From: Halorubrum lipolyticum DSM 21995 | Lineage (GTDB): Archaea; Halobacteriota; Halobacteria; Halobacteriales; Haloferacaceae | Assembly (NCBI RefSeq): GCF_000337375.1 | Contig: NZ_AOJG01000010.1 | Coordinates: 1 to 64,000, forward strand | Length of the DNA stretch: 64,000 nucleotides | Direction of reading: 5' to 3' | Part shown: one piece after another, positions 40,218 through 63,124 of the stretch | How the letters are laid out: each line of letters begins with the position of its first letter | Numbering within the stretch: the stretch's first letter is position 1 | Position numbers and translations under genes: made by a program | The notes under the pieces: generated by a model | Seen by the model: the letters and a program-made list of their open reading frames with translations, nothing else | Database searches by the model: none | What the model was told of the DNA's origin: nothing

Positions 40218-40282
40218 GGCCGGGATTTGAACCCGGGCCATGAGCTTGGAAGGCTCAGGTCCTACCACTAGACCACCGGCGC
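40212..40282 (-). tRNA. tRNA-Gly (anticodon TCC)
   Basis: On the minus strand the acceptor GCGCCGG pairs with CCGGCGC, with discriminator A. The D-arm contains TAGTGGTAGGAC. The anticodon stem TGAGC/GCTCA encloses CTTCCAA, giving anticodon TCC. The T-arm is CCGGG-TTCAAAT-CCCGG. It decodes GGA/GGG. CCA is not encoded. Downstream of it are several partial copies of its own 3' end. Confidence 0.93.
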
Positions 40283-43585: not shown

Positions 43586-44152
43586 TCACCACAGGGCGGT
43601 CGACCGCTGGATGACGAAGTGGGGCTCGTCGCTGTCTTCGTCGCCGAAGAGGAACGAGAGGAACGACAGCGAGTAGCGGTGGTCCGCGATGTCGATGGCG
43701 TGTCCGTCGACGTCGTCGAAGCGGTCCGCGTAGCGCTCGACGGTGTCTCGGTGGACCTGGAGGCCGTACTGCCGTCGGAGCGTGCGCTCACAGGCGGTCG
43801 GCGACTCGTCGGCGGCGTGGAACACGCAGAGGTCGACGACGGGCTTCGCGTACGCGCAGCCCTCGTAGAACAGCGCCGAGAGGTCGCCCTGAAACGACCG
43901 CCCGCAGTCGAGACACTCGTACTGCTGGACGTCGACCCCGACGTCTTCGAGCCCCTCGGCGGTGACCAACCGCGCGACCGTCTTCGGTTCGTTCTGATAG
44001 CCGTTCTTCCGATGTTCGTCCGAGCCGCAGTTCGGACAGGGCCGCGGATCGCCCCTGCGCTCGTCGGCGACCTGCCGGAGCTCCTCGTGGATCGCGTTGA
44101 CGAACAGCGGCGAGACGGCCGGATCGAACGGCTTCTCGTCTGGGCCTCGCAT
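43586..44152 (-). CDS. Zinc-ribbon protein derived from a transposase N-terminal half; candidate regulator
   Basis: A 188-aa protein. Two zinc half-sites, CPNCGS with the following RKNGYQNE and YECLDCGRSFQ, form the ribbon seen at the N-terminus of IS1/IS6-like transposases. A helical part (YAKPVVDLCVFHAADESPTACERTLRRQYGLQVHRDTVERYADRFDD) resembles their helix-turn-helix. The catalytic DDE domain is absent and no terminal inverted repeats flank the gene. It may be a domesticated DNA-binding protein controlling the divergent ABC operon; three TCACGTTA repeats lie in the gap. A TATA-like TTTATGCC (about 44175-44182) is 24-30 bases upstream. Function is inference. Confidence 0.6.
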   Translation of the reverse strand: MRGPDEKPFDPAVSPLFVNAIHEELRQVADERRGDPRPCPNCGSDEHRKNGYQNEPKTVARLVTAEGLEDVGVDVQQYECLDCGRSFQGDLSALFYEGCAYAKPVVDLCVFHAADESPTACERTLRRQYGLQVHRDTVERYADRFDDVDGHAIDIADHRYSLSFLSFLFGDEDSDEPHFVIQRSTALW

Positions 44153-45537: not shown

Positions 45538-45616
45538 TCGGAGCGTCGGCCAACCTCGTTTGGCTTACTAGCGGTCCGACACCATCTATCGAACTACCGA
45601 CAATACTGAAATACTC

Positions 45617-46732: not shown

Positions 46733-48519
46733 GTGGTCTCAGAGAGCTGTACAGTCGAATCAGCGCCGCGATCAGTCGGCTCGTCCGGCTATGGACGTCA
46801 ACGGTAGACCATCCAAGAGCCAAAGGTGTCGTCCTCAAGACCATCGTTGGGACCGTTGCCGTACTCACGCTCGTCCCGCTGCTGTTTCTGTTGTGGACGA
46901 GCGTCTGGACCGGCTATCCCGGACAGTTCGACGCCTCGTTCACGCTCGACAACGTACTCTCGGTGTACATCGAAGGGGCCTACAACGTCCCGACGTTGCT
47001 GTCTCACTCCGTTTTTGTCGCGCTTGGCATGACGCTGATCGCAATGTCACTTGGCCTGACGTTCGCGTGGCTATTCGTCAGGACGAACCTTCCCACGAAA
47101 GGTGCGATGGAACTCGTCCTTCTCTCACCGTACGCCGTGCCGGGATATATTTCGGCGCTCATGTACATCACCACCTACGATCCGAACAACGGCCTTGTGT
47201 CAACGTTCCTTGCTGATACACTAGGTGTAGGAATCCCGATCAACATTTTCAGCCCGCTTGGGATCACCATCGTCGTAGGGATCAACGGGGTGACAGCGTT
47301 CTACCTGTTTACTGTTCCCGCCCTCCAGAACATGGACCCCGCGCTCGAAGAAGTCAGCCGTATTCACGGAGCCAATATTTTCCAGACGATTCGGTCGATC
47401 AGCTTTCCGCTGATACTGCCCGCGATCCTCTCGGGAGCGCTCGTCACTTTCTTGCGGGGACTCGGTGAGTTCTCTGTCGTCGAGATCCTCGGTGTTCGGG
47501 AGGGATTCGATGTGTATGCGACTGCAATCTGGGCGGCGATCCAACAGCAGGCACCACCGGAGTACGGCCAGTCGGCGGCGTTGGCGCTCAGTTTACTCCT
47601 CGTTACGGCCGTGTTGATGTGGTACTACCGTCGGCTTACGAGCCGAAACCAAGATTATATGACCGTCACAGGACGGGGATACCAACCCGACCGGTGGGAC
47701 TTGGGTAGGTGGCGATGGCCTATCGCGGCCACACTCTGGGTCGTGCTGTTCGTCCTCTGGATTCTCCCGTTGGTGGTCATGATCGCCGTCTCGTTCCACT
47801 CGACGTGGCTCGGGCAGTTCGATCCCGCGAGCCTCTCGCTCATCCACTACGCGGATGTCCTCACCAGCCAGCGACTCCAAGAGTCGTTTCTCAACAGCGG
47901 TATCGTTGCAGTTACCGGCGCGACACTTGGCACAATACTGGTCGTCGGCATCGCCTACTACACTCAGCGGACGGCGTACCGGTTTAGGTCCTCCATCGAG
48001 TTCCTGTCGCTGACGCCGCTAGCAATTCCGGGAATCATCTTGGGTACGGGCGTCCTTTTCACCGTTTTGTGGGTGGGACGCATTCATCCGCTGCTGAATT
48101 TCTACGGCACGCTGGGAGTCATTATCATCGGCAGCGTCATCGTTTTTATACCGTTTTCGTCGCGGATCGCTATCGGGAATATCGTCCAGATCCACTCCGA
48201 TCTCGAAGATGTCGCTCGTGTCTCGGGTGCGTCGTGGGTTGGGCAAATGCGAGAGATTTTCCTTCCACTATTTAAGAATACCACGGCTATTCTCTGGTTT
48301 TATCTGCTGGTCCACATCGTCCAACTGCTTTCGATTCCGATTATGACCTACACCTCAGATACGCGGGTGATCCCAGTCGACATCTTCGATATCTACTACC
48401 AGCAGGCGAACATCGAATTGGTCTCGGCAGTCTCGACCATCTTCGTGCTGTTGTTGGCGTCGATACTGGTCGTATTCCGTCTATTCGGTATCAGATTCTA
48501 CGATCTCGATCACCGTTAA
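46729..48519 (+). CDS. ABC transporter permease, two-module FbpB-like
   Basis: A 596-aa membrane protein with about twelve helices arranged as two six-helix permease modules, each with an EAA-like loop (EEVSRIHGANIFQTIRSISFPLILPAIL and EDVARVSGASWVGQMREIFLPLFKN). This fused form is typical of iron(III)/thiamine-family transporters. It completes the operon with the binding protein and ATPase, overlapping the ATPase gene by four bases. It converges with the Pht5-like gene on the other strand. Confidence 0.9.
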   Translation: MSGLRELYSRISAAISRLVRLWTSTVDHPRAKGVVLKTIVGTVAVLTLVPLLFLLWTSVWTGYPGQFDASFTLDNVLSVYIEGAYNVPTLLSHSVFVALGMTLIAMSLGLTFAWLFVRTNLPTKGAMELVLLSPYAVPGYISALMYITTYDPNNGLVSTFLADTLGVGIPINIFSPLGITIVVGINGVTAFYLFTVPALQNMDPALEEVSRIHGANIFQTIRSISFPLILPAILSGALVTFLRGLGEFSVVEILGVREGFDVYATAIWAAIQQQAPPEYGQSAALALSLLLVTAVLMWYYRRLTSRNQDYMTVTGRGYQPDRWDLGRWRWPIAATLWVVLFVLWILPLVVMIAVSFHSTWLGQFDPASLSLIHYADVLTSQRLQESFLNSGIVAVTGATLGTILVVGIAYYTQRTAYRFRSSIEFLSLTPLAIPGIILGTGVLFTVLWVGRIHPLLNFYGTLGVIIIGSVIVFIPFSSRIAIGNIVQIHSDLEDVARVSGASWVGQMREIFLPLFKNTTAILWFYLLVHIVQLLSIPIMTYTSDTRVIPVDIFDIYYQQANIELVSAVSTIFVLLLASILVVFRLFGIRFYDLDHR

Positions 48520-48525
48520 CAGTAC

Positions 48526-49521
48526 TCAGCAGTCGAGCGTCGATTCGACGAACAGCTCCTCGGGATCGTACTGTCGTGGAATCAGCCCTTGATCGTGAGC
48601 ATACCGAATGAACGTCCGCAGTTCCTGCCGAGTCCGTTCGGTCAGTCCGTACTCCCATGCGTGTGGACCGAGCGTCTCGGCTTGGTCGACGCGATGGAGA
48701 TGTGACCATGTGAGCGAGGTCTTGGCGCTCGGACTCCGGTTCCGCTCAAAACACCGGTCCCGGGAGTCGACGAACGCATCAAAAACGTTGACTGCGACCC
48801 ACGGGTGAGCCTCTAAGACCTCATCTCGAATGGCAACGACGTGCATCGGGGGGTGGATACCCGTATCCGCGTAGTATTGTTTCTCCTCGGCGATCGGCTC
48901 GTCGAAAAACAGTTCGGCGGTCTCGGATTCGACAACTGCGTTGAACATCTCTCCAGCGGGGTCCATGGCCGCATCGAGGTCACCAGATAGCAGGGCCTGC
49001 TTGAGATCCAGTGGCTCTTCGACGGCATCACCGCCCTGCTCTCCCGCGATTGGGGCGATATCGAACCTGTCAGGAAGCGATGCCCCGACGTCATCGTCCT
49101 TCCGTCGGAACCACTGAACGGTTTCGAGATCTAGCCCGTAATACTCCTGAAGGATCCCGCGAATCCAGACGTTTGCGGTCGTCTCCCACGACTGTATGCC
49201 CACCTTTTTGCCAGCTAGATCAGTTGGATCCGAGATATCGCTGTGAACGTGTTTGAACAGGAACGAATGACGAAACTTCTTTTCGGGGAACACCGGAATC
49301 GCCGTGAAAGCGTGTTTATCGGGATCGCTCCGCGAGGAGAGATAGGAGGCCAACGACACCTCACAGATATCGAACTCCTCGTGGCGGAAGAACCGCCGGT
49401 GTCGTTTCGGAGGGTATTCGATGATTGTCGTTAGATCGATCCCCTCTGGCTCTATCTCTCCAGTCATGAGTGGTCTCACGATATCACCGATATAGCTGCT
49501 CAGGCTGAGTTCGATGGTCAT
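48526..49521 (-). CDS. Pht5/4,5-dihydroxyphthalate-decarboxylase-like periplasmic-binding-fold protein (copy A)
   Basis: A 331-aa protein (MTIELSLSSYIGDIVRPLMTGEIEPEGIDLTTI...FDICEVSLASYLSSRSDPDKHAFTAIPVFPEKKFRHSFLFKH...DLAGKKVGIQSWETTANVWIRGILQEYYG...PWVAVNVFDAFVDS). The features are those of the PBP2 subfamily that includes Pht5 and SsuA/THI5-like proteins. No signal peptide or lipobox is present, so it probably acts in the cytoplasm as a binding protein or enzyme. Its codon use matches the A/T-shifted segment, unlike its GC-rich paralogue at 49648. Real decarboxylase activity is unproven. Confidence 0.72.
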   Translation of the reverse strand: MTIELSLSSYIGDIVRPLMTGEIEPEGIDLTTIIEYPPKRHRRFFRHEEFDICEVSLASYLSSRSDPDKHAFTAIPVFPEKKFRHSFLFKHVHSDISDPTDLAGKKVGIQSWETTANVWIRGILQEYYGLDLETVQWFRRKDDDVGASLPDRFDIAPIAGEQGGDAVEEPLDLKQALLSGDLDAAMDPAGEMFNAVVESETAELFFDEPIAEEKQYYADTGIHPPMHVVAIRDEVLEAHPWVAVNVFDAFVDSRDRCFERNRSPSAKTSLTWSHLHRVDQAETLGPHAWEYGLTERTRQELRTFIRYAHDQGLIPRQYDPEELFVESTLDC

Positions 49522-49647: not shown

Positions 49648-50619
49648 TCAGGCGAAGTACGGCGTCTCGAGGTGCTCGGTCGCGAACAGCTCCTCGAGGC
49701 CGTACCGCTCGTCGGCGACGCCCTGCCGGTGGGCGTGATCGATAAGCCTCTCCAGCGTCGCGACGTTGCCCTCGGAGAGCCCGTACTCCCAAGGGTCCTC
49801 GCCCAGCACCTCGCGCTGCTCGTCGGCGTGGATGTCGGCCCAGACGAGCGGGAGGTCACGCGGCCGGTCGAGCGTCGACAGGCCGATCTCCTTGGCCCGT
49901 TCGAAGGCGTCGTAGAGGTTCTGGGCGACCCACGGTTTCTCTCGAAGTAACTCGTCTTCGAGCGCGATCGCGTGCATGATCGGGAAGATCGACGTCTCGC
50001 GGAAGTACTCCTGTTCGACCGACTTGACGTCGTCGAACAGCCGCTCCACGTTCGCACCGTCAAGGTCGATCGGATGAAACACCGCGTCGAGGTCGCCGCG
50101 GTCGAGCATCTCCGTCAGCATGCCGACCATCGACCGCTGGTGGTCGAGGTACTCGACGTCGTAGCGGTCCGGCACGTCGACGTCGACGATCTCCGACCCA
50201 CCGGCGACCCACTCGATCGACGAGAGGTCGACGCCGTGCCGCTCCGCGAGGGTCCCGCGCTGCCAGATACCGGTCGTCGTCTGCCAGTTGACGATCCCGA
50301 CCCGCTTGCCGTCGAGGTCGCCGATCGAGTCGATTCCCGCGTCGGTGCGCTTGTACATGTACGAGTGCCGGAACTTCCGAAACGGGAAGACGGGGATCGC
50401 CGTGAACGGGTAGCGGTCGGGGTCGCTCCGAGAGGCGAGATACGTGCCCATCGAGAGCTCGCAGGCGTCGAACTCGCGGCCGTGGACCATCCGGGAGAAG
50501 CGGGTCGGATTCGGGTAGTCGACGGCCGTCAGGTCCACTCCTTCCGGGGTCACGCGACCGTCCCAGAGCGGCTCGGTCCAAGCGTAATCGTGACAGGCGA
50601 GCGTGAGGTCGAGCGTCAT
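49648..50619 (-). CDS. Pht5/4,5-dihydroxyphthalate-decarboxylase-like periplasmic-binding-fold protein (copy B)
   Basis: A 323-aa paralogue of the gene at 48526. It shares the FDACELSMGTYLASRSDPDRYPFTAIPVFPFRKFRHSYMYK region, DLDGKRVGIVNWQTTTGIWQRGTLAE and PWVAQNLYDAFERA. It too lacks a signal peptide. ATG 50619 starts MTLDLTLACHDYAWTEPLWDGRVTPEGVDL, the family N-terminus; CTACAATCTAC about 30 bases upstream may be its promoter. Its GC-rich codon use is like the host, so the two copies probably have different histories. Ligand or reaction unknown. Confidence 0.75.
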   Translation of the reverse strand: MTLDLTLACHDYAWTEPLWDGRVTPEGVDLTAVDYPNPTRFSRMVHGREFDACELSMGTYLASRSDPDRYPFTAIPVFPFRKFRHSYMYKRTDAGIDSIGDLDGKRVGIVNWQTTTGIWQRGTLAERHGVDLSSIEWVAGGSEIVDVDVPDRYDVEYLDHQRSMVGMLTEMLDRGDLDAVFHPIDLDGANVERLFDDVKSVEQEYFRETSIFPIMHAIALEDELLREKPWVAQNLYDAFERAKEIGLSTLDRPRDLPLVWADIHADEQREVLGEDPWEYGLSEGNVATLERLIDHAHRQGVADERYGLEELFATEHLETPYFA

Positions 50620-50742
50620 GCATTCGAACACGAACAGCGAGTAGATTGTAGTTCCGATCGGTAAGCGATCGATCCGCGGAGTCACTGCAGTTCGGTCAAA
50701 TCATTCATTGGGCTCGGGAACCATCTAATAGGTCGACAGCGT

Positions 50743-50824: not shown

Positions 50825-51604
50825 CTATTCGGCTTCCCAGAAGGTCAGGCGGTCGCCAAGTGCGTCCACGCCGTAGATGAAGACGATCCCCAGCAGGGTT
50901 ATCATCACCAGCGCGGCGTACATCCGCTGGATGGTAAACAGACGCCAGGACCGCCAGATGAGATAGCCCAGCCCCGATTTCGCCGCCAGCATTTCGATGA
51001 CGACGATGAGGTTGAACCCGACGCCCAAACCGAGGCTCAGCCCAGCGAAAATCTCCGAGAGCGACCCGGGGAGCAGTACGTCGCGGTACAATGCGAGTGT
51101 CCCGGCACCGTTGTCGAGCGCGGCGTCGATGTACGCGTCGTCTATCTGCTGGACACCACCCATCGTGTTGACCGCGACCAGCAGGAATATGGCGATGCTC
51201 ATCGCCAGCACTCGAACCGTCTCGGTCACGCCCAGTAGCGTGAACATGATAGGGACGAGCGCGATCTTCGGGATGGGATAGAACAGACTCACGTACGGGT
51301 TCACGAGAAGTCGAATCGGTCGCGACCATCCCATCCAGAGACCGATCGCGATACCGCTCGTTGAACCCACGAAGAAGGCGAGTAGGACGCGCCGCAGGCT
51401 GACCCAAGTGTGATAGGCCAACGACCCCTCGACGAGTAACTGACCGGTTACGCCCACGACGACCGACGGCGGCGGGAAGAAGGTCGGATTGACGACGGCC
51501 AGTCTGGCGAGCACCTCCCAACACAGCAACACCGCGAGAATAGGGGCGACATGGAACCCGAGTTTTCGCGGGGACGTGTACCGACGGCGGCGGGATTGGC
51601 TCAT
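50825..51604 (-). CDS. ABC transporter permease (SsuC/TauC-like)
   Basis: A 259-aa protein with about six helices. The EAA-loop region DAALDNGAGTLALYRDVLLPGSLSEIFAGLSLGLGVGF matches the BPD_transp_1 family of nitrate/sulfonate/taurine importers. It overlaps the ATPase gene by four bases and is the last gene of the SBP-ATPase-permease operon. The substrate cannot be told from sequence; sulfonates, nitrate, taurine and pyrimidines all use this family. Confidence 0.9.
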   Translation of the reverse strand: MSQSRRRRYTSPRKLGFHVAPILAVLLCWEVLARLAVVNPTFFPPPSVVVGVTGQLLVEGSLAYHTWVSLRRVLLAFFVGSTSGIAIGLWMGWSRPIRLLVNPYVSLFYPIPKIALVPIMFTLLGVTETVRVLAMSIAIFLLVAVNTMGGVQQIDDAYIDAALDNGAGTLALYRDVLLPGSLSEIFAGLSLGLGVGFNLIVVIEMLAAKSGLGYLIWRSWRLFTIQRMYAALVMITLLGIVFIYGVDALGDRLTFWEAE

Positions 51605-52464
51605 CGCTCGACCGACTGCTGAACCTCGTCGCTTAACAGTTCCCAGACGCGCTCGCGAAGCGTGGTGAACTCGTCTGTCGGGATCGACCCGCGAGTACGC
51701 GGTCGCGGCAGATCCACGTCTAGCACCTCCTTTACACCGCCGGGTCTGGCGGTCATGACTGCCAGTCGGTCACCGAGAGTTATCGCCTCCTCGATATCGT
51801 GTGTGACGTAGACGACCGTCTTTTTCGTCTCGCTCCACAGTGAGAGCAGTTCCGCCTGGAGGTTGCGTTTCGTCTGTGCGTCCAGCACGCCGAACGGTTC
51901 GTCCATCAGGAGAACTTCGGGATCGTTCGTGAACGCGCGGGCGATAGCGACGCGTTGTTTCATTCCGCCGGATAACTGATGCGGGTAGGAGTCGGCAAAC
52001 TCCGCCAGGTCGACCTTCTCCAAGTAGGTTCGGGCCTTCTCGTGGCGGCGTTGTTTCTCGACGCCGTCCATCTTCAACCCGAACGCGACGTTGTCGAGGA
52101 CGGTCTTCCAGGGGAAGATGCCGTGTTCCTGAAAGACCATGTTCGTCACGGAGCCACCGTCAGCACGCGCCGCTGAGATCTCGACCGTCCCGGTGTAGTC
52201 GGAGTCGAGTCCCGAGAGGATGCGAAGGAATGTTGACTTTCCGCACCCCGAGGGACCGAGCAGGCAGAAAAACTCTTGATCGTGGATCGTTAGATCCACG
52301 TCTGCGAGTGCCTCGACATCGTCTGACCGGGCTGCGTAGGTCTTCCCGACGCCGCGTGCGCGGATACACGGGGACTCGGTCACTGACTCCTCGCGGGAAG
52401 TCTCGGCCATCTCTGTGGCCTTCGAGTTCTGCTCATTGAACGCTTTCGGTGGCTCTCCATTCAT
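51601..52464 (-). CDS. ABC transporter ATP-binding protein (SsuB/TauB-like)
   Basis: A 287-aa ATPase. It has Walker A GPSGCGKST, Q-loop FQEHGIFPW, signature LSGGMKQRVAIARAF, Walker B VLLMDEPFGVLD and His VTHDIEEA. The chain ends without a TOBE domain, as usual for Ssu/Tau-type ATPases. The first about 30 residues are polar and may not all be translated; MAETSREE is an alternative start. It begins 15 bases after the binding-protein stop and overlaps the permease start. Confidence 0.92.
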   Translation of the reverse strand: MNGEPPKAFNEQNSKATEMAETSREESVTESPCIRARGVGKTYAARSDDVEALADVDLTIHDQEFFCLLGPSGCGKSTFLRILSGLDSDYTGTVEISAARADGGSVTNMVFQEHGIFPWKTVLDNVAFGLKMDGVEKQRRHEKARTYLEKVDLAEFADSYPHQLSGGMKQRVAIARAFTNDPEVLLMDEPFGVLDAQTKRNLQAELLSLWSETKKTVVYVTHDIEEAITLGDRLAVMTARPGGVKEVLDVDLPRPRTRGSIPTDEFTTLRERVWELLSDEVQQSVER

Positions 52465-52479: not shown

Positions 52480-53727
52480 TTACTGGCAGATGGTGTCGCC
52501 CGGGAAGTCGGGCAGCTCTGATATCTCACCGATGGGCGTGTACGGCCGCGGTGCGTTCTCTCCCCACTGTCTGACTTGGTCCGGCGAGGGAGCAGCTTCC
52601 GCCTCGGAGACGCGCCCGACCGAGTCGAGCGCCTCCGACAGCAGCGAGGTGTCGAACAGTTCGCTCCGCTCGACGGGATTGTCCACGTACCCACGGCAGG
52701 CGTGGTACTCCTGCTGGCGCATCACGTCGTCCTGGTTGACGCGTCCGTTCTTGTTCGGGATTGCCGGGACCGACGACTTGATCGCCTGTTTGTTGATGTC
52801 GAACGCCTCGTTGATGATGGTCGCGACCTCGTCGTCCGGGTACGAACCCATCTCGTAGTACGTCCGGACCCCTTTCAGGTAGCCTTCGAGCCATCGGACG
52901 GCCACGTCCGTTCGCTGCTCGATGAACGGGCCACCGAAAAAGTACGCGGCGATCTGCATCCGGGGGGCGACCGCCGACGCGTACAGGACGTGCCCGGCGT
53001 TTGCGTTGTTCGCCAGTGCCAGTCCCAGCGGGTCCGGTGCGATGCACGCGTCTACGTCGCCGGACATCAGCGCCGACACCATATTCGAGAACTGTATCTC
53101 GTTGACCTCCACGTCCTCCCAACTCATGTCGTATGCGGTGAGCACCCGGCCGAGGACGTAGTCCAGTGAGCCGCCTTCGGCGTTGTGTGCGACCGTGAGC
53201 GGCCCGTCGACTGCGTCGGCGATCTCCGGGAACGTGGCGTCTTCCGAGTAGATGCCCTCCCGGGCCCAGACCCGCGCTGCTCCCGGTACGTTCGGGTAGT
53301 GCTGTGCCATGTCGGCCGCGATTTTGATGGGCACGTCCTGCGAGATGGAGTTGGCGATGCTGGCCCCGAACGACCCGGCGGCGACGTCGATGTCGCCCGA
53401 CGCCAACTGTGGCGCCGCCAGCGGGACGCCGTTGATTCGCTCGCGCTCGACCTCGATGTTCCGCTCCTCGAAGTATCCCTCCTCTTGAGCGATGAGAATC
53501 GGTACGACCGTCGCGATGGGAAGGGTCCCGAACGTCACGGTGTCGGTACCGCTCCCCCCGATTGTGGACCCGAGACAGCCACCGAGCGCGGCGGCCGTCG
53601 TCGCTCCGGCGGCACCGAGGAACTGTCGGCGTGAGGGCGCCGCGTCACGGCCGTCTGTCTCGCTTCGTTTCGACGTCGATGACCGTCGTCCCGTTGAGTC
53701 GGCAGACGATCGCTCCGCCCGTTTCAT
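52480..53727 (-). CDS. ABC transporter substrate-binding lipoprotein (SsuA/THI5-like)
   Basis: A 415-aa exported binding protein. A long polar N-terminus precedes SRRQFLGAAGATTAAALGGC, a Tat signal with lipobox Cys C51. The mature part (TVTFGTLPIATVVPILIAQEEGYFEERNIEVERERING...ASGDIDVAAGSFGASIANSISQ) is the SsuA/NMT1/THI5 solute-binding family, which captures sulfonates, nitrate or HMP-like compounds. It heads the operon with the ATPase and permease that follow. TTTTTAATAAGG (about 53747-53758 on the minus strand) is a strong promoter 20-30 bases upstream. Confidence 0.87.
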   Translation of the reverse strand: MKRAERSSADSTGRRSSTSKRSETDGRDAAPSRRQFLGAAGATTAAALGGCLGSTIGGSGTDTVTFGTLPIATVVPILIAQEEGYFEERNIEVERERINGVPLAAPQLASGDIDVAAGSFGASIANSISQDVPIKIAADMAQHYPNVPGAARVWAREGIYSEDATFPEIADAVDGPLTVAHNAEGGSLDYVLGRVLTAYDMSWEDVEVNEIQFSNMVSALMSGDVDACIAPDPLGLALANNANAGHVLYASAVAPRMQIAAYFFGGPFIEQRTDVAVRWLEGYLKGVRTYYEMGSYPDDEVATIINEAFDINKQAIKSSVPAIPNKNGRVNQDDVMRQQEYHACRGYVDNPVERSELFDTSLLSEALDSVGRVSEAEAAPSPDQVRQWGENAPRPYTPIGEISELPDFPGDTICQ

Positions 53728-53843: not shown

Positions 53844-55298
53844 ATGGGACCCAATCGCTCCTCCAAAACGGAAGACCGTGAGCCAAGCCTCCGACAGCCC
53901 GACCATCGAGGGACGCTCGTCTTGAGCGACGAGAGTGGGTATGTCGGTGATACGATCACGTTCCACGGTCGGAACTTCCCGACTGACGAACAGTTCGACA
54001 TCGAGTGGCGGACCGTCGAGGGGTCGTGGGGCGTCCTCGAGGCCCACGAAATTGTCGGGCCGCAGTTTCGCCCGCGAACCGAGACGATTGCGACGGTCAC
54101 CACCGACGCGGACGGTCGCTTCGACCACGAGTGGACGATACCGGAAGATTACGGCAGTTTCCACACCGTATCGGTCACCACGAAAGACGGAACGACCGTC
54201 GATCAGGCCGAGTTCGAGATCTCGCCGTGGTTCGAACTCGACCGGAAGAGCGCGGAACTCGGTGACTTCGTTGTCGTCACGGGCTACGGACTGGGTCCCG
54301 GCGTGATGGTCAACAACTACCAGGTCGCCTGGGACAACACCACCGTCGGATTCCTGACGGGCGTCCGGAACCGTGGCACGGCGACGGCCGAAATCCGCGC
54401 CGTCGGGCCGCCGGGCGAGCACATCCTGCAGGTCTGGCGGGGGTATCGCGGAATGCCGTTCCTCCAGAACAACACTCAGTCGCCGTACGGAAAAGTCGCG
54501 AACGGGCGACAGACGGCCTGGACTGTGGACGTGACCGAACCAGAGACGGACCCGCAAACCGCCTGGGTCGATCCCATGCCTGAGGAGCGCCCGCTCAGCA
54601 CTCACTACCCCGAGTTAGACGAGGCGAGCGAGGCCGAGCTGTCGATCTCCCCGGAGTACGGCCAGTCCGGGACGGAGGCGATTATCACCGGCGAGCAGTT
54701 CCAGCCCCACACCGAAGTCGATCTCATCTGGTACCACCACAGCGGCCACGAACCCCAAGGCCCGGACAAACCGCCGCTGCCGACCATTACAGCGGAACCC
54801 TGGCCCGAGACGCTACCGACCGTCGAGACCGACGCGGACGGTCGATTCCAAGTCGACGTGACGATACCGAAGGACATCGGGTCGACGCGACCGATAACCG
54901 CCCGCGTCGGCGGGCGTGACGTGGCGGTGACGGGGTTCATGATGCAACCCTCCATCGAGACCTTCTCGCCGACGAGCGGCCCGGTCGGGACCGAAATCGA
55001 GATCGAACTCACCGGCGTGGGATGGACCCAGTACGAGATGTCACCGCTTTTCGTCTACGACAACGGCCCGCTGGGATACGCCTGCGGGCTGAGCGATAAG
55101 GAGGACGGAACGACGATTCGGACCATTTTGCAGGCCTCGGGACAGCCCGGGTGGCACTTCATCGACGCCTACCCGACGCTCTTCCGGATGCAAGAGGAGG
55201 AGCCGGAGTTCGAGCTCAACGCACACCTCTCGTACCTCGACAATCATCCGATGCGGCCGGTGCCGGCGTTCCACTTCGCGTTTGAGATCACCGAGTAG
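53844..55298 (+). CDS. Ig/TIG-repeat protein A, unknown function
   Basis: About 484 aa from ATG 53844 (MGPNRSSKTED...). There is no signal peptide or transmembrane helix. Four Ig-like repeats of about 100-110 aa can be seen, each with GD.(I/V)..(H/T)G...P...(F/V)(D/Q)(I/L)(E/I)W, a later TVTTDADGRF...TIPED and a closing ...F.(I/M).P. One example is TLVLSDESGYVGDTITFHGRNFPTDEQFDIEWRTVEG near residues 27-60. It is about 60% like the protein encoded at 56147-57589. The family seems to accompany Ssu/Tau-type transporters; binding or scaffolding is the most that can be inferred. Confidence 0.65.
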   Translation: MGPNRSSKTEDREPSLRQPDHRGTLVLSDESGYVGDTITFHGRNFPTDEQFDIEWRTVEGSWGVLEAHEIVGPQFRPRTETIATVTTDADGRFDHEWTIPEDYGSFHTVSVTTKDGTTVDQAEFEISPWFELDRKSAELGDFVVVTGYGLGPGVMVNNYQVAWDNTTVGFLTGVRNRGTATAEIRAVGPPGEHILQVWRGYRGMPFLQNNTQSPYGKVANGRQTAWTVDVTEPETDPQTAWVDPMPEERPLSTHYPELDEASEAELSISPEYGQSGTEAIITGEQFQPHTEVDLIWYHHSGHEPQGPDKPPLPTITAEPWPETLPTVETDADGRFQVDVTIPKDIGSTRPITARVGGRDVAVTGFMMQPSIETFSPTSGPVGTEIEIELTGVGWTQYEMSPLFVYDNGPLGYACGLSDKEDGTTIRTILQASGQPGWHFIDAYPTLFRMQEEEPEFELNAHLSYLDNHPMRPVPAFHFAFEITE

Positions 55299-55333
55299 AG
55301 CCTTTCCCCTTCTTTTCCCGCGTTTTCGTCGAG

Positions 55334-56122
55334 TTACCGGAGGGCGGCTTCCGCGGGGCGATCATTCTCGTCGGGCGTCCACGTGATGAGTCGGTCGCCG
55401 ATCCATCTGAGCCCGTACGTGATGCCGACGCCGATAGCGGCGATAACGGTCAGCGTGGCATAGACATCACCCAGCGAGTACGTTTGATAGGACACCCAGA
55501 GGTAGTATCCCAGCCCGCGCCCGCCGGCCAGCAGCTCCGCCGAGATGACGATGAGCAGCGCCGTGTTCATCGCCAGTCGCAGGCCGACAAAGATGGCCGG
55601 CAGAGACCCCGGTAGGAGGATCTCCCGAAATATCGTGAGCGAACTCGTGGCACCGTTGTCAGTTGCCACGTCGAAATAGATATTCCGTATCTGCCGGGCA
55701 CCGTTCATCGCGTTCCACAACATGACGAAGAAACCACCGAGTGCGGCCGTGAACACGAGCGCGCTGCTGTCGGTGCTAAACACGAGCACCACCAGCGGGA
55801 GCAACGCGATAACCGGGATCGGATACACTGCGGAAAACAGTGGCCCGAGTAGCGCCTTCACGGTGTCGTTCCAACCCATGATGACCCCGACGCTGACTCC
55901 GGACACAGCCGCCAGCACCGAAGCGAGGAGTGTCCGCTCGATAGTCGCCGAGAGGTGGCCGAGAAACGCCTGCTCACCCAGCAACGTAAGCGTGCGCTCG
56001 AAGACCGTCACTGGCGGCGGCAAGACTCCTGGATCCACCACGCCGAAGACACCGACGGCGAGCTGCCAGGCGAGTAGCGCGGCGGCGAGCGAGAGCGTCT
56101 GATAGAGGCGGTCGGAGTTCAT
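55334..56122 (-). CDS. ABC transporter permease (SsuC/TauC-like), without its own ATPase or binding protein
   Basis: A 262-aa membrane protein with six helices and the EAA loop DVATDNGATSSLTIFREILLPGSLPAIFVGLRLAMNTALL. It is related to the permease at 50825 but clearly different. It begins 24 bases after TIG-repeat protein B on the same strand, so the two form an operon. No ATPase or binding protein accompanies it, so it may share the ATPase at 51601 or form a mixed permease with 50825. Confidence 0.86.
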   Translation of the reverse strand: MNSDRLYQTLSLAAALLAWQLAVGVFGVVDPGVLPPPVTVFERTLTLLGEQAFLGHLSATIERTLLASVLAAVSGVSVGVIMGWNDTVKALLGPLFSAVYPIPVIALLPLVVLVFSTDSSALVFTAALGGFFVMLWNAMNGARQIRNIYFDVATDNGATSSLTIFREILLPGSLPAIFVGLRLAMNTALLIVISAELLAGGRGLGYYLWVSYQTYSLGDVYATLTVIAAIGVGITYGLRWIGDRLITWTPDENDRPAEAALR

Positions 56123-56146
56123 CGAAGATCCGGCGGGGAGGCGTGA

Positions 56147-57589
56147 CTACTCCTCGATTTTAAACGCCATGTGGTAGGCCGGCAGCGGCCGGATCGGGTG
56201 GTTGTCGAGATACGACAGGTGCGGTCGGAGCTCGAACTCCGGCTCCTCTTCTTGCATCTCGAAGATCATCGGGACGGCGTCGATGAAGTGCCAGCCGGGC
56301 TCGCCGGTGGCCGGCAGTTCAAGCCGGACGGTCCCGCCGCCGTCGTCGTCGGTCAGCCCGCAGACGTAGCCCAGCGGCTTGTTGTCGTAGAGGAAGTACG
56401 GAGCGTTCTCGTACACCGGCCAGCCGACGCCGGAGAGCTCGATCTCGATCGTCGTCCCGACGGGGCCGCTGGTCGGCGTGAACGTCTCGATCGACGGCTG
56501 CATCATGAAGCCGGTGACCGCGATCTCGCGGCCGCCGACCGCGGCCGTGATCGGCCGGGTGGAGCCCTCGGCCCTCGGGATCGTGAACTCCGTCTGGAAC
56601 GCGCCGTCGTCGTCGGTCGTGACCGTCGGGAGCACGTCCGGCTTCGGCTCCGGCGTGATCGGGACCCCCTTGACGCGGTGGCCCTCGTGGCGGTACCAGA
56701 TCAGGTTGACCTCCTCGTTCGCCGGGAAGTTCTCGCCGGTGATGAACGCCGAGGTACCGGGCTGCCCCGAGGACGGCGAGATCGACAGCTCCGCGTCGGT
56801 CTCCTCGTCGATCTCCGGGTAGTGAATGCTGATCGGGCTCTCGTCGAGCTGCTCGTCGAGCCACGCCGTCCGCGGCTCGCCCTCGGGCTCGGTGACCTCG
56901 ACGGTCCACTGCGACTGTCGCCCGTCGGCGACCGGGCCGTACGGCGACTGGGTGTTGTTCTGGAGGTACGGGACGCCGCGGTAGTTGCGCCACACCTGCA
57001 CGACGTGTTTGCCCGGCGGGCCGACCGCGCGGATGCGAGCGGTCGCCGTCCCGCGGTTCATCACGCCCGTCATAAAGCCCACGTTGCCGTTGTCCCACGC
57101 GACCTGGTAGTTGTTGGTGACGACGTTCGGGCCGATCCCGTGGCCGGTGACCGTGAAGAAGTCACCGAGGGGGGCCTCGGTGTTCTCGAGTTCGAAGTGC
57201 GGGAGGATCGTGAACGTCGCCGTGGCGACCGTCGACTCGCCGTCGACGACCTCGATCCGGTGTTCGCCGCCGTAGTCTTGGGCGACGGTCCACTCCTCGT
57301 CGAACGCGCCCGACCCGTCCGTCGTGACGGTGGCGACGGTCTCCGTCCGGGGGTGGTACTGCGGGCCGACGACCTCGTTCGCCTTGAGGACGCCCCAGCG
57401 GCCGTCGCTCGTCTTCCACTTGATCTCGTAGCGTTCGTTCGCCGGGAGGTTCCGGCCTTTAAATGTGATCGTGTCGCCGACGTATCCCTCTTGGTCGCTG
57501 ACGACCAGCGTCCCCGAGGAGTCACTCCCCCGTCGGTGTCCCTGGAGGGTCTCTTCGAGGTCCGACGATATCGCTGAGTCCTTACTCAT
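56147..57589 (-). CDS. Ig/TIG-repeat protein B, unknown function
   Basis: About 480 aa from ATG 57589 (MSKDSAISSDLEETLQ...), no signal peptide. It shares the four-repeat layout and long segments with protein A, such as NYQVAWDN(T/G)xVGF(L/M)TGV.NRGTATA.IRAVGPPG and YLDNHP(M/I)RP(V/L)PA(F/Y)H. Its sequence is GC-rich and host-like. A strong minus-strand TTTATTAAAT (about 57609-57620) lies 20-30 bases before the start. It leads an operon with the orphan permease at 55334. The lack of an export signal in both copies makes a cytoplasmic or membrane-side role more likely than adhesion. Confidence 0.65.
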   Translation of the reverse strand: MSKDSAISSDLEETLQGHRRGSDSSGTLVVSDQEGYVGDTITFKGRNLPANERYEIKWKTSDGRWGVLKANEVVGPQYHPRTETVATVTTDGSGAFDEEWTVAQDYGGEHRIEVVDGESTVATATFTILPHFELENTEAPLGDFFTVTGHGIGPNVVTNNYQVAWDNGNVGFMTGVMNRGTATARIRAVGPPGKHVVQVWRNYRGVPYLQNNTQSPYGPVADGRQSQWTVEVTEPEGEPRTAWLDEQLDESPISIHYPEIDEETDAELSISPSSGQPGTSAFITGENFPANEEVNLIWYRHEGHRVKGVPITPEPKPDVLPTVTTDDDGAFQTEFTIPRAEGSTRPITAAVGGREIAVTGFMMQPSIETFTPTSGPVGTTIEIELSGVGWPVYENAPYFLYDNKPLGYVCGLTDDDGGGTVRLELPATGEPGWHFIDAVPMIFEMQEEEPEFELRPHLSYLDNHPIRPLPAYHMAFKIEE

Positions 57590-57726
57590 GTGTGGTTCCA
57601 CGGCGGCGTTATTTAATAAACCCAGCCAGTCATTCCCAGCCGGTGGAACGCCGCGGGCCCTAGAGGATTCCTGAGGACTGAAAAGAGAGGATCAATCTTA
57701 TTGAGTAGGGTGCAGACCGTGTTCGT

Positions 57727-58251
57727 ATGTCGTCGAAAAACGCATCAGCCAAGCTGTTCGGCCGCGACGTCGAGTTTACGTACTCCGAGACGTGGATCGC
57801 CTACGCCCTGTTCGCGTTGCGGCTGATGATGGGCTGGGTGTTCTTCTACGCCGGGATCGTGAAGGTCATCGACCCGAACTGGAGCGCTCGACCGTTCCTC
57901 CTCAACGTCGATCAGGCGAACCCGCTGGTCGACGTGTGGGTGGCGATGGCCGACTGGGTCTGGCTGCTGACCCCGCTCAATCAGGTCGGGCTGACGCTCG
58001 TCGGGATCGCGCTCCTCGTCGGCGCGTTCGTACGGCTGAGTGCCTTCTTCGGCGCGATGATGATGCTGTTCTACTGGGCGTCCGCCTACCCCTTCCCGGA
58101 CGCGATCTTCATCGACTTCCACCTGATCTACGCGTTCCTGCTGTTCGCGCTGGGCGCGGCGGGTGCCGGTCGCATCCTCGGGCTGGACCAGTGGATCGAA
58201 GAGCTCGATATCGTCAAGAACAACCCGCGGCTCACCGTGCTGCTCGGCTAG
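57727..58251 (+). CDS. DoxX-family integral membrane protein
   Basis: A 174-aa protein with four helices. LRLMMGWVFFYAGIVKVIDP, FLLFALGAAGAGRILGLD and PLNQVGLTLVGIALLVGAFVRLSAFFGAMMML are the DoxX/DoxD family pattern. Relatives include the thiosulfate:quinone oxidoreductase subunits and proteins tied to redox stress. In a sulfonate-type transport island a sulfur or quinone link is tempting but unproven. CTTATTGA (near 57695) is about 30 bases upstream of the ATG. It ends with a T-rich terminator. Confidence 0.86.
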   Translation: MSSKNASAKLFGRDVEFTYSETWIAYALFALRLMMGWVFFYAGIVKVIDPNWSARPFLLNVDQANPLVDVWVAMADWVWLLTPLNQVGLTLVGIALLVGAFVRLSAFFGAMMMLFYWASAYPFPDAIFIDFHLIYAFLLFALGAAGAGRILGLDQWIEELDIVKNNPRLTVLLG

Positions 58252-58349: not shown

Positions 58350-59000
58350 TCAGTCGTCCGACGGAGCGACGGTCGCGTAGCAGTTCCCGCTGGAGATCTC
58401 GACGTCGACGGCGCCGAGAGCGCTCTCTCCGAGGTCGGCCTCGAACTCCTCGGGCGAGTAGATGTGATAGTACCGCGGCACCGTCTCGCCGCCCGGGAGC
58501 GTCCAGTCGACGGTCGTGTCGAACCCCTCCTCCCGGTCGAACCGGTCGTGGGCCGTGCTCCACGCGCTCACAAGCGCGGTCCCGCCCGGCGCGAGGACCC
58601 GCGCGAGCTCGTCGAGGCTCCGGACCCGCGCCTCTCGCGAGGGGAGGTGGTGGAGGGTCGCGACGTAGACGGCGAGCCCGACGGCGTCGGTCGCGATCGG
58701 GAGGCTCGCGGCGTCGCCGTGGACGAACGAGGCGGCCCCGTCGTACCCTCGCTCGCGGGCCCGAGCGACCGCCTCGCGGAGGAGCTCGCGGCTGAGGTCG
58801 ACGCCGACGACCGCCTCCGCGCGCTCGGCGAGCGGCTCGGCGTGGCGCCCGTTGCCGCAGCCGACGTCGAGCGCGCGCGTCGCGGCGCGCCCGTCGAGGA
58901 ACGACTCGACCTCCGGCCACGCGTACTCCCTCGTCTTCGAGAAGTGCGCGGCGATCCGGTCGTACGTCGACTGCGGGTCGCCGGTCGACTGGGGATCCAT
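58350..59000 (-). CDS. Class I SAM-dependent methyltransferase
   Basis: A 216-aa Rossmann-fold enzyme. The SAM motif reads ALDVGCGNGRHAEPLAE, the acidic loop is VVGVDLSRELL, and motif VAVYVATLHHLPSREARVRSLDELARVLAPGGTALVS continues the family's second half, much like UbiE/TrmB-type and ALKBH8-tRNA methyltransferase domains. The target is unknown. It stands between the DoxX gene and the pilus operon, on the same strand as the latter but about 110 bases beyond its stop. Confidence 0.86.
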   Translation of the reverse strand: MDPQSTGDPQSTYDRIAAHFSKTREYAWPEVESFLDGRAATRALDVGCGNGRHAEPLAERAEAVVGVDLSRELLREAVARARERGYDGAASFVHGDAASLPIATDAVGLAVYVATLHHLPSREARVRSLDELARVLAPGGTALVSAWSTAHDRFDREEGFDTTVDWTLPGGETVPRYYHIYSPEEFEADLGESALGAVDVEISSGNCYATVAPSDD

Positions 59001-59110: not shown

Positions 59111-61252
59111 TCACAGCAGGTCGATCACGAGGAACGCGGCGAGCGTCAGCGCGAGCAGGACGACGACGTGTTTCACGCCGTCTCGGACCGATCCCTCGCC
59201 GAGCTGGCCGGCGACGAGCCCGGAGCAGACCGCCTGTATGGCGGCGGCGTGGAAGAACAGCTGCTCGTAGGCGGTCGCGTCGATCTCCCCGAGCCCGTCC
59301 GTGATCCCCCCCGCACCGCTCGGCGCGCCGGGGAGGTCGCCCGCTCCGGCACCGGTGCCGGAGATCGCCGCCTCCTCGATCGCGGGGATGAACGAGACCG
59401 ACAGCGAGGCGATGATCCCCAGGAACACGAGGAAGGAGATGTAGATCACGAGGAGGTACGTGAGCATCACCTGTCGGCGCTCTCGGCGGAGCGACCACGT
59501 CGCTCGCGCCTCGTCGGCCGCGATCCGGAGCACGGGACCCACGTCGCCGCTGGCGCGCATCGCGTTCGTGATCAGCGCGACCGCCCGCGAGGTCATCGGC
59601 GACCGGACCCGCCGCTCCAGCCGCCTGAGGGCGGCGCCCACGTCGGCGCCCCAGTCGATGTCGCGGCGGGTGCGTCGCAGGTCCTCGGTCAGCGCCTCCA
59701 GGTTCGAGTCCGCGACGCGGCGGACGCTCCCGACCACGGAGGTACCCGCCTCGTTGACGCTGGCGAGGCGGTCGAGGAAGTCGGGAACCGCCGACTCGAT
59801 CCGCCGGATTCGACGCTTGCGCGCCTCGTAGACGCCGGCGTAGCTCGCGAGCACGAGCGCGGTCGCGGCGGCGATCGGCCGCTCGACCTGCCCGACCATC
59901 TCGGCCGGGGGGCCGAGCGTGATCGGGAAGGCGAACGCGAGGAGGCCGACGACCGCGAGCGGAACGGAGACGAGGAACACCGTCCGCGGCGCGTCGAGCA
60001 CGCTCTCGACCGGAGACGCGGCCCAGCGCCGCAGCGTTCGGATCCGATCGTACGCGCGGAGCCGCTCGCGGCTCGCCGCCCAGCGGTCCCCCGCCGGCGA
60101 GTCGCCCGCCACGCCGCCGTCGGGCCGCGGGCTCCCCTCCGCCCCCGCGTTCGCGGTGTCCCTCGCTTCGACCCCGTCGTCGATCGCCTCCGAGAGGTCG
60201 ACGGTCTCGGTGCCGCCGATCCCCTGCGTGACGCTGTCGACGTACACCACGAACCCGAACGTCGCCAGCGGGACCCCGAGGTAGACCACGACGCGCAACA
60301 GGGGGAGGGTGTCCTCCAACACGAGCCCGATCACCACGAGGATGGTGATGAAAAACAGCGGGCCGGCCACCAACGCGGTGACGTACGCCTCCGCGAACGT
60401 CGAGAGCAGTTCGAGGTACCGCTGCTGTTTCGCCTCGGCCTCCTCCTGGTACAGCTCGTACTGGTCGCTGAGGAACGCCGAGACGGGCTGACCGGTGCCG
60501 AGCACGGACGCGAGGTTCTCCGCGAAGTCGGCGAGGTCGTCGCTGGGGGTGCGACGAGAGGTGCGCTGGAGCGCGGTGAGCGCGTCGGTGCCGAAGGCGT
60601 TCATGTCGCGGACCGCGACCGATAGCTCGGTCGCCGCCTCGCCGTACACCGCCTCGTTCTCCGCGAGGGTGTCCATCACGCGCGGGAACGGCATCCCCGA
60701 CCGCGAGAGCGCGTACATGAACGCGACGGTCCGGGGAAGGGTGGCGTCGATCTCCGTTCCGCGGGCGTGAGCGCGCTGGTCGAGCAGCTCCCACCGCCCG
60801 TAGTACATCCCGACGGCGAGCGCGGCGCCGAGCGTCGCCGACGCCAGCGTCAACAGGAGGAACAGCTGGGGGAGCTCGAGCGCCGTGAGCCGCGTCACCC
60901 CCGCGACGAACCCGATCGACGCGGGGAGGGTCTCCCGCAGGGCCGCCTCGCTCACCTCGAGCGCCGAGAGGAGCCCGGCCGCGGCGTACACGCCGGCGAC
61001 GCTGCCGGCGACGCCGAGCACGCCGGCGTACAGGAGCGTCTTGGCGGCGTACGTCCGGTGAGTGCCGGCGACGTGGGCGGCGCGCATCAGGTCGCGCTGC
61101 CGCCGGCGCCGTGGCCCGTCCTCGGCCACGTAGTCGCCGAAGAGCGACAGCGCGGCCCGGGTGACGACGAGGTCCGCCCGCTCGTCGAGCGCGGGCAGGA
61201 GCAGCGCCAGACCGCAGCCGAGCGCGGCGAGGAGGGGCAGGTACGCGATCAT
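59111..61252 (-). CDS. Archaeal type IV pilus/secretion platform protein (TadC/PilC/FlaJ-like, two T2SSF domains)
   Basis: A 713-aa integral membrane protein with two T2SSF domains (about 190-330 and 480-650), each followed by paired helices. The second starts RIRRIESAVPDFLDRLASVNEAGTSVVGSVRRV and ends with VMLTYLLVIYISFLVFLGIIASLSVSFI. The length and duplication match the archaeal PilC/TadC group. It anchors the pilus ATPase at the membrane. Its start overlaps the stop of the ATPase gene by four bases. No pilins are encoded nearby. Confidence 0.9.
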   Translation of the reverse strand: MIAYLPLLAALGCGLALLLPALDERADLVVTRAALSLFGDYVAEDGPRRRRQRDLMRAAHVAGTHRTYAAKTLLYAGVLGVAGSVAGVYAAAGLLSALEVSEAALRETLPASIGFVAGVTRLTALELPQLFLLLTLASATLGAALAVGMYYGRWELLDQRAHARGTEIDATLPRTVAFMYALSRSGMPFPRVMDTLAENEAVYGEAATELSVAVRDMNAFGTDALTALQRTSRRTPSDDLADFAENLASVLGTGQPVSAFLSDQYELYQEEAEAKQQRYLELLSTFAEAYVTALVAGPLFFITILVVIGLVLEDTLPLLRVVVYLGVPLATFGFVVYVDSVTQGIGGTETVDLSEAIDDGVEARDTANAGAEGSPRPDGGVAGDSPAGDRWAASRERLRAYDRIRTLRRWAASPVESVLDAPRTVFLVSVPLAVVGLLAFAFPITLGPPAEMVGQVERPIAAATALVLASYAGVYEARKRRIRRIESAVPDFLDRLASVNEAGTSVVGSVRRVADSNLEALTEDLRRTRRDIDWGADVGAALRRLERRVRSPMTSRAVALITNAMRASGDVGPVLRIAADEARATWSLRRERRQVMLTYLLVIYISFLVFLGIIASLSVSFIPAIEEAAISGTGAGAGDLPGAPSGAGGITDGLGEIDATAYEQLFFHAAAIQAVCSGLVAGQLGEGSVRDGVKHVVVLLALTLAAFLVIDLL

Positions 61253-62919
61253 CCGTCGCCGGCGCCCGTCTCGGCGCGAGCGCCCGCCTCACCGGGGTCG
61301 ACGCTCCCGTCGCTCCGCTCTTCGAGCCGCTCCATCACGCGCTCGGGGTCGGCGTAGTACTCGTTGACGAGGGCGGTGAACGCCCGGTAATCGGTGACGC
61401 CGAGTCCGCGGAGCAGTTCGATGAAGCGCTCGCGGCGCCGGATCTCGCGGAGCAGCTCCGACCGTGACCAGCCGCGTTCGTCCGCGATCTCCTCCATGAG
61501 CGACGAGTCGTTCCGGCTGAACTCGTCGGTCTCGGCGTCCCACTCGAACGCCGAGGAGTAGTCGAGCTCTCCGGTGCGCTGGTCGATCCCGCCGATCTCG
61601 CCGATCGTCTTCGCGCGCCGGACGCGCTGGTCGCCGGAGCGGGTCAGCGTCTGGATCGACAGCATGTCGAGCGACTGGACCATCGCGCGCGGCACGTTGA
61701 TCGGCTCGTTCTCCAGCCGGTTGATCACCGTCTCGATCGAGTCGGCGTGCATCGTCGAGAAGGTGGTGTGACCCGTGTTCATCGCCTGGAACAGGGTGAT
61801 CGCCTCCTCCCCGCGGACCTCGCCGACGACGATGTACTCGGGCCGGTGACGCAGCGCGGAGCGGAGCAGGTCGTACATGTCGATGTCGGCGCCCTCGTAG
61901 CGGCGCTCGCGGGTGACCGAGGAGAGCCAGTTGTCGTGGTAGAGGGAGAGCTCGCGGGTGTCTTCGATGGTGAGTATCTTCGCGCGTGGCGGGACGAACA
62001 TCGACACCGCGTTCATCGAGGTCGTCTTTCCGGAGGCGGTGCCGCCCGCGAAGATGAGGCTCTTGTTGTGCTCGATACAGAGCCAGAAGTACGCCATCTG
62101 TGCGACCGAGAACGTGCCGTACTCCACGAGGTCGATCGGCGTGAACGGGTCCTCGGCGTACTGGCGGATGGTGAACGCGGAGCCGCGCGGCGTCACCTCC
62201 TCGCCGAGCGCGAGCTCCGCGCGGGAGCCGTCGGGCAGCGTCGTCTCAACGATCGGGTCGCCGACGGAGACGTGGCGCCCGGACTGCTGGGCGAGCCGGA
62301 TCACGTAGTTGTCGAGCTCGCCCTTCGCGAATGAGACGTTGGTCTCGATGTCTGTGTAGTCGTCGTGGTAGACGAACAGCGGGAGGTCGTAGCCGTCACA
62401 CGAGATGTCCTCGATGTGACGGTCGTTGAGGAGGGGGTCGACCTTCCCGTAGCCCCGGAAGTCGCGGTAGAGGTAGTACGCGAGCGCGTGGAACGTGTCC
62501 ATCCCGATATCGACGCCGTACCCCTCCAACAGCCCCTCAAGCTCCGTCCGGAGCGTCTCTTCGTCAGTCCGGCCGGTACCCTCGCGGTACAGCAGCGGGT
62601 CTCGGATGTCGTCGACCACGCGGTCGAGGAGGTCGCGCTCGAACCGGTCGAGGTCCGGCTCGACCGCGTGGTATCGGTGTTCGCTCTCCGCGTCGTCGTA
62701 GGTGATCACGACGTACGCGTACGGGGCGTTCACCCAGTAGCGGTCGACCTCGCGCTCGCCGTCGGGAACCGCGAAGGAGGCGAGCGGGCCGTCGGCGTCC
62801 GGCCTGAAGGGCCGAACGTCGATGTCGGACCCCCGAAGCACCTCCCACGTCCGCGAGAGCCGCCGCCGGAAGGCCTCGATGCGATCCCCGGCGTCGTCCT
62901 CGCGCGCGTCACTCGCCAT
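61249..62919 (-). CDS. Type II/IV secretion ATPase (TadA/PilB-like)
   Basis: A 556-aa hexameric ATPase that powers archaeal type IV pili or related secretion. The N-terminal domain (1-190) includes HALAYYLYRDFRGYGKVDPLL. The nucleotide site is AGGTASGKTTSMNAVS (Walker A), followed by AKILTIEDTRELSL (Asp box), VVGEVRGEEAITLFQAMNTGHTTFSTMHADS (Walker B and His box). The start ATG 62919 is preceded by a TTTTAAA box on the minus strand (about 62949-62957); the upstream in-frame ATG at 62985 would precede that box. It is co-transcribed with the platform protein. Confidence 0.95.
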   Translation of the reverse strand: MASDAREDDAGDRIEAFRRRLSRTWEVLRGSDIDVRPFRPDADGPLASFAVPDGEREVDRYWVNAPYAYVVITYDDAESEHRYHAVEPDLDRFERDLLDRVVDDIRDPLLYREGTGRTDEETLRTELEGLLEGYGVDIGMDTFHALAYYLYRDFRGYGKVDPLLNDRHIEDISCDGYDLPLFVYHDDYTDIETNVSFAKGELDNYVIRLAQQSGRHVSVGDPIVETTLPDGSRAELALGEEVTPRGSAFTIRQYAEDPFTPIDLVEYGTFSVAQMAYFWLCIEHNKSLIFAGGTASGKTTSMNAVSMFVPPRAKILTIEDTRELSLYHDNWLSSVTRERRYEGADIDMYDLLRSALRHRPEYIVVGEVRGEEAITLFQAMNTGHTTFSTMHADSIETVINRLENEPINVPRAMVQSLDMLSIQTLTRSGDQRVRRAKTIGEIGGIDQRTGELDYSSAFEWDAETDEFSRNDSSLMEEIADERGWSRSELLREIRRRERFIELLRGLGVTDYRAFTALVNEYYADPERVMERLEERSDGSVDPGEAGARAETGAGDG

Positions 62920-63124
62920 CGTCGTTACGGAGGCGTATGCGCCGAGGCGGTTTAAAATCCACCCGGCGATTATCAGCGGCGACATCGGGGGCCGTCGCGG
63001 GGTCGGCGTCGCTGGAGTGGCGCCACGCGGGGTAGCGGCGTCGTCGACTCCGCGCCTCGCCCGGTCCGACGGGGGATTCGCCCGTTACGTTCATACGGGA
63101 CGACCGCAAAGTACCGGACAGGAA

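Follow-up and report, generated by a model that had tools for sequence, protein, structure and literature searches.

Ig-like proteins TIG and cIgLP, an undescribed pair on an importer-linked catabolic island of Halorubrum lipolyticum

Introduction

What could be the role of two related immunoglobulin-like (Ig-like) repeat proteins, both devoid of a recognisable export signal, that are encoded among importer genes in the haloarchaeon Halorubrum lipolyticum DSM 21995? The genes lie within the first 64,000 nucleotides of contig NZ_AOJG01000010.1, the whole of which is referred to as the window, and the two members of the TIG family are encoded as follows:

53844-55298, plus strand: TIG_A, 484 aa, paralogue of TIG_B, inverted between the genes for SBP and PermB (see below)
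56147-57589, minus strand: TIG_B, 480 aa, four Ig-like domains (2x2 repeat), heads an operon with PermB

An earlier note on this DNA had tied the pair to Ssu/Tau-type transport and proposed that the proteins are ligand carriers in the cytoplasm or at the membrane. It overlooked the tightest partner of TIG, an Ig lipoprotein anchored by way of the twin-arginine translocation (Tat) route and here called cIgLP, as well as a bacterial homologue that bears a signal peptide. The importer, the CoxG-like protein and the 4,5-dihydroxyphthalate-decarboxylase-like proteins (DHPdc) at this locus belong to known families, and TIG and cIgLP are an undescribed pair of Ig proteins on an importer-linked catabolic island. 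The papers found in a literature search describe neither a TIG protein in haloarchaea nor a role for TIG or cIgLP, in agreement with the note, which knew of no described role for the family in transport.

Results

TIG, cIgLP and CoxG as a constant core

Among 391 genomes of the haloarchaeal class, 33 TIG copies were found in 24 genomes from 13 genera. The weakest copy has approximately 58% identity, with nothing below that level, and identity across genera is between 55 and 99%; TIG_B of Halorubrum kocurii is 99% identical to TIG_B of the window. Species without TIG are common within the TIG-bearing genera, which makes the distribution patchy. A profile of cIgLP matches exactly the same 24 of the 391 genomes (Fisher 8e-39 by genome and 1e-15 by genus), and since the genome counts include kin genomes the genus-level figure, 13 of 13 against 0 of 73, is the safer one. 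Orthologues of the third gene, encoding the CoxG-like protein (at least 47% identity), occur in 23 of the 24 TIG genomes and in no others, the next best match being at 41%. It is well supported that these three genes form the constant core, with ATP-binding cassette (ABC) importers and genes for decarboxylases or hydroxylases added to it as modules. The partners of TIG in the window are:

41151-42140, plus strand: cIgLP-L, Tat lipoprotein with two Ig-like domains, signal TRRRLLATGAATWATVGLAGC
40461-41048, minus strand: cIgLP-S, Tat lipoprotein with one such Ig-like domain, divergent from cIgLP-L
42187-42792, plus strand: CoxG-like SRPBCC protein (PF06240, 79.4 bits, cut-off 22.2)

The cIgLP start has the twin arginine, the hydrophobic stretch and the lipobox cysteine of a Tat lipoprotein (RRRLLATGAATWATVGLAGC in the window). 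All seven cIgLP-L starts checked carry the arginine pair and the lipobox, with R28-R29 and L44-A45-G46-C47 invariant. In eight genomes the neighbours of cIgLP are genes for a Tat iron-sulfur (FeS) protein resembling DsrO/TtrB, an NrfD membrane protein and a 2Fe-2S ferredoxin lipoprotein (L058:16296-19674, L062:17027-20000, L052, L053, L055, L063, L064 and L065); no catalytic molybdopterin subunit was seen next to these genes in the stretches read.

Export signals in haloarchaea and Deinococcus

TIG itself was checked by means of the Kyte-Doolittle average over the most hydrophobic 19-residue stretch within the first 45 residues. Among 40 distinct haloarchaeal TIG sequences none showed a signal peptide, a lipobox or a membrane helix at the N terminus, which extends what the earlier note had read for the two window proteins. 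The average is at most 0.55 in these sequences (n=40), compared with 1.63 in a homologue from Deinococcus sp. D7000. This homologue is the single relative obtained in a search of plasmids (28% identity over 95% of the length, E 2e-30), while other classes of the phylum gave nothing beyond short, weak Ig matches and no relative was found in viral contigs. The gene directly upstream of it on the Deinococcus plasmid encodes a secreted 160-aa protein of the cIgLP family (40.8 bits against the cIgLP profile), and each of the two adjacent products bears a Sec-type signal peptide, the one on the TIG homologue having been judged by eye. The signal of the Deinococcus homologue makes an extracytoplasmic place for TIG at least as plausible as the cytoplasmic or membrane-side place suggested before; the proposed role as a ligand carrier stays putative.

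The Tat system carries folded proteins, whereas partners exported through Sec would each need a signal of their own. Export through Sec in Deinococcus would thus call for a signal on each partner, and both do carry one, while the missing signal of haloarchaeal TIG would be explained if the protein rides out bound to the Tat-borne cIgLP. Tat export of heterodimers with one signal peptide is established (PMC10924467). Like the signal-less subunits of such heterodimers, TIG is always accompanied by a partner that is a Tat substrate, a necessary feature of a hitchhiker rather than proof of one. TIG and cIgLP, as a putative complex, differ from them in being Ig-like proteins and not cofactor enzymes.

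Fold and conserved residues of TIG

The description of two four-repeat Ig-like proteins of about 480 aa with shared sequence proved accurate. TIG_A and TIG_B share 64% identity across 483 aligned columns. In BLASTP a further segment (E=1e-10) matches the two halves of the protein to each other, so that TIG is a duplicated two-domain unit. The AlphaFold2 model has four Ig-like beta domains whose cores are predicted with confidence and whose loops are uncertain (mean predicted local distance difference test score, pLDDT, 76; predicted template modelling score 0.74). The structures that match it are Ig or macroglobulin domain strings of a generic kind, and such matches say nothing of function. 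Against the Pfam family IPT/TIG (PF01833) the two proteins score 24.0 and 24.4 bits, above the gathering score of 20.9, with best stretches that cover only about 26 of the 84 model positions. TIG thus shares with IPT/TIG proteins a weak above-threshold match and four Ig-like domains; it differs from them as a full-length 480-aa family of its own, without an export signal in haloarchaea and linked in operons to importers and catabolic enzymes. DR_A0006 (3GGN/2KCZ) was rejected as a structural relative: its E value of 1.5e-4 with a single sequence rose to 0.024 with the profile and the aligned stretch crosses a domain border, for which reasons the match was taken as chance. A TATA-like motif, ttattaaata, was found by eye on the minus strand at 57610-57619 ahead of TIG_B, and its position suggests a leaderless start.

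Generic Ig and macroglobulin strings are what would be expected if the TIG proteins were ordinary structural or adhesive proteins travelling along on the island. We consider this highly improbable, as fast-evolving adhesins would not be expected to keep identities of 55 to 99% across genera, to be coupled to importer genes in operons or to co-occur perfectly with cIgLP; the missing signal peptide, the compact range of high identity and the operon coupling argue against an ordinary surface adhesin.

H110, D402-N403, C410, H434 and H464 of TIG are conserved across haloarchaea and Deinococcus. C410, the lone cysteine, is conserved in 32 of 33 aligned sequences; a paralogue in Salinibaculum sp. 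KK48 (L011:5137-6576) is without it, and the second KK48 copy keeps it. cIgLP has one cysteine per Ig domain besides that of the lipobox, and in the Deinococcus counterparts of both proteins the conserved cysteine is the sole one in each. This pattern suggests that TIG and cIgLP may share a joint site or a disulfide. The same invariant residues could instead make TIG an enzyme or a redox partner, with His, Asp-Asn and the lone Cys forming an active or metal site at which the substrate would be transformed, a proposal with which the FeS, NrfD and 2Fe-2S genes adjoining cIgLP in eight genomes would agree. It is unlikely, since profile searches gave no similarity of TIG to any enzyme family, and the conserved C-terminal motif sits in low-confidence loops of the model from which no site can be drawn.

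Coupling of TIG to importers

The importer genes next to TIG_A and TIG_B, and a second importer further away, are:

55334-56122, minus strand: PermB, SsuC/TauC-type permease, 24 bp after TIG_B (BPD_transp_1, 58 bits)
52480-53727, minus strand: solute-binding protein (SBP), NMT1/SsuA-like, Tat signal and lipobox (NMT1_2, 63.3 bits)
51601-52464, minus strand: ABC ATPase of the importer (ABC_tran, 107 bits)
50825-51604, minus strand: PermA, second permease of the importer (BPD_transp_1, 71 bits)
44323-48519, plus strand: second ABC importer, with Tat SBP (44323-45537), ATPase (45617-46732) and fused permease (46729-48519)

The gene order given in the earlier note is correct, and what it counted as a complete Ssu/Tau-type operon on one side and a matching permease on the other are parts of the same transporter. 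Other genera have a single operon in which TIG is followed by PermB, SBP, ATPase and PermA, while the window has TIG_A in inverted orientation between the SBP and PermB genes. Four genomes possess the complete run TIG-PermB-SBP-ATPase-PermA-CoxG and others nearly all of it, several genera being represented. Repeated linkage to SsuC/TauC-type permeases had been set beforehand as the test of a tie to transport. PermB orthologues (at least 48% identity) are found in 14 of the 24 TIG genomes and in none of 24 controls, and in 12 of the 14 the gene lies 3-62 bp downstream of a TIG gene on the same strand; in a family tree this adjacency falls in separate clades. SBP at 47% identity or more is present in the same 14 genomes and in 0 of the other 367, with one match of 39% outside.

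The linkage therefore stands, and the further idea of a dedicated Ssu/Tau subunit does not. All importer parts score above the Pfam cut-offs of the NMT1/SsuA-BPD superfamily, which they share with SsuABC/TauABC-type importers, and all stay far below the equivalog cut-offs for Ssu and Tau (PermA 137 and PermB 113 against 342 for TauC, ATPase 225 against 357, SBP 61 against 163.5). The system differs also in its two unlike permeases, in the Ig-repeat protein that comes first and in the CoxG that comes last in several genera. The PermB/SBP transporter is absent from 10 of the 24 TIG genomes, where other importers or genes of catabolism take its place, and TIG is thus not a dedicated Ssu/Tau subunit. 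An ABC importer of some kind lies within approximately 20 kb of TIG in 21 of the 24 genomes, a hand count from neighbourhood tables that has no random-locus baseline; these are of the PermB/SBP type, another type of the same superfamily, the 44323-48519 type or a Liv-like type, the last recognised from sequence only. Sulfonate or taurine as the substrate was rejected, as nothing beyond superfamily likeness speaks for either.

Catabolic genes on the island

The other recurrent members of the island are:

49648-50685, minus strand: DHPdc1, 4,5-dihydroxyphthalate-decarboxylase-like, no signal, true start probably internal (9JP7)
48526-49521, minus strand: DHPdc2, paralogue of DHPdc1 (40% identical)
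42920-43579, plus strand: flavin-reductase-like protein (FlavRed), a frequent island member (PF01613, 86 bits)
57727-58251, plus strand: DoxX-family membrane protein beside TIG_B (PF07681, 29.9 bits)

DHPdc1 is homologous over nearly its full length to the solved 4,5-dihydroxyphthalate decarboxylase PDB 9JP7 (E 1.4e-51, residues 25-341). The window differs from that case in having two DHPdc paralogues inside an importer island, and no complete phthalate pathway was identified around them. The DHPdc family occurs in 13 of the 24 TIG genomes and in none of 24 controls. Where PermB is absent the slot behind TIG is often taken by DHPdc, in two genomes with a 1-bp overlap with TIG, and second TIG copies in five genomes precede a methyltransferase gene. 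Some islands hold genes for UbiD, an Xdh-type hydroxylase, an isochorismatase-like and a UbiX-like protein (UbiD, isochorismatase-like and UbiX-like being assigned by reading the sequence), a company that hints at a (hetero)aromatic acid but is no proof of one. In one genome (G165, L046:2480-10979) TIG neighbours an Xdh-type molybdenum hydroxylase gene together with XdhC-like and MobA-like genes, these two as read from sequence. In 12 of the 24 genomes TIG has a DoxX-family gene next to it or close by, and a zinc-ribbon-like protein (43586-44152 in the window) recurs beside FlavRed in several islands.

These enzymes bear on the possibility, tentative but to be taken seriously, that TIG stays in the cytoplasm, where it would carry ligand or act as a scaffold beneath the importer; CoxG would tether it to the inner membrane face, and it would pass the imported compound to DHPdc, Xdh or UbiD enzymes. 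This possibility would account for the 40 haloarchaeal sequences without an export signal, where cIgLP and SBP of the same islands have one, and for operons in which TIG is followed by, and twice overlaps, genes for cytosolic enzymes. On the other side, Ig-repeat strings seldom serve as cytosolic ligand carriers, the strictest partner of TIG is the extracytoplasmic lipoprotein cIgLP and the Sec-type signal of the bacterial homologue is clear. CoxG, present in 23 of the 24 TIG genomes, again speaks for the cytoplasm, as CoxG-like proteins have been shown to anchor a soluble enzyme at the membrane in the archaeon Sulfolobus (PMC11962113). The CoxG proteins of CO dehydrogenase and of the Sulfolobus glycerol-3-phosphate dehydrogenase are likewise SRPBCC proteins beside metabolic genes that may anchor a soluble partner; the island CoxG differs in accompanying TIG and cIgLP, mostly without a molybdenum hydroxylase.

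Boundaries of the island

At one edge of the island lies a tRNA gene that is present at empty sites too:

40212-40282, minus strand: tRNA-Gly

The genes flanking the island (38217-39293 and 58350-59000) are 2.5-12.5 kb apart in eight of eight Halorubrum genomes that lack TIG, as compared with 16.5-19 kb in three carriers. Four of the empty sites were read; they contain the tRNA-Gly and a distant DoxX and none of the genes from cIgLP to TIG, and for this reason we take the island to have been gained or lost as a unit. The DoxX of the empty sites (L108, L109, L110 and L111), approximately 32% identical to that of the island, stands beside a gene of 94-96 aa next to the tRNA-Gly. The 3' end of the tRNA-Gly includes 22 nt that are repeated exactly 155 bp away (40057-40078 and 40212-40233), a repeat that looks like the trace of an integration event. 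Directly beyond the other edge, genes for a pilus-type secretion ATPase and a membrane protein were read from the sequence (59111-62985), the nearer of which also occurs at the empty sites.

Discussion

Our preferred reading, to which we give a probability of roughly 0.4, is that the island lets the cell import and degrade a small organic compound, probably a carboxylated (hetero)aromatic one, with TIG and cIgLP on the outer face of the membrane and TIG exported as a hitchhiker. The two proteins would form one complex there, the haloarchaeal cIgLP leaving through Tat and TIG leaving bound to it. This complex would capture the ligand and hand it to the Tat-anchored SBP, PermA, PermB and the ATPase would import it, and enzymes of the DHPdc type would act on the compound inside the cell.

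Several observations weigh against placing TIG outside. The TIG-cIgLP complex, like the place of TIG outside the cell, is a prediction. Genes for cytosolic DHPdc and methyltransferase and for CoxG lie downstream in TIG operons, as described above, and the copy number of TIG in a genome does not correspond to that of cIgLP. A localisation score based on composition is intermediate for TIG (median 0.67, range 0.41-0.92, from a small training set), the structure model of cIgLP is poor (pLDDT 48, too low for a fold search), and the plasmid search yielded only one bacterial relative of TIG. It is less likely than not that TIG and cIgLP represent a new kind of extracytoplasmic ligand-capture complex in haloarchaea and Deinococcus, a common front end for unrelated importer families in which the haloarchaeal TIG is exported on the Tat signal of cIgLP.

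A 480-aa family that was otherwise merely a weak IPT/TIG match now has a strict partner, a fixed three-gene core and a repeated attachment to importers, and the TIG pair probably helps the cell to capture and use an organic nutrient. These findings offer a way into an uptake route in archaea, a group in which routes of this kind are still poorly charted. Should TIG indeed be exported with cIgLP, it would be a clean natural case of a signal peptide dispensed with because the partner uses Tat instead of Sec.

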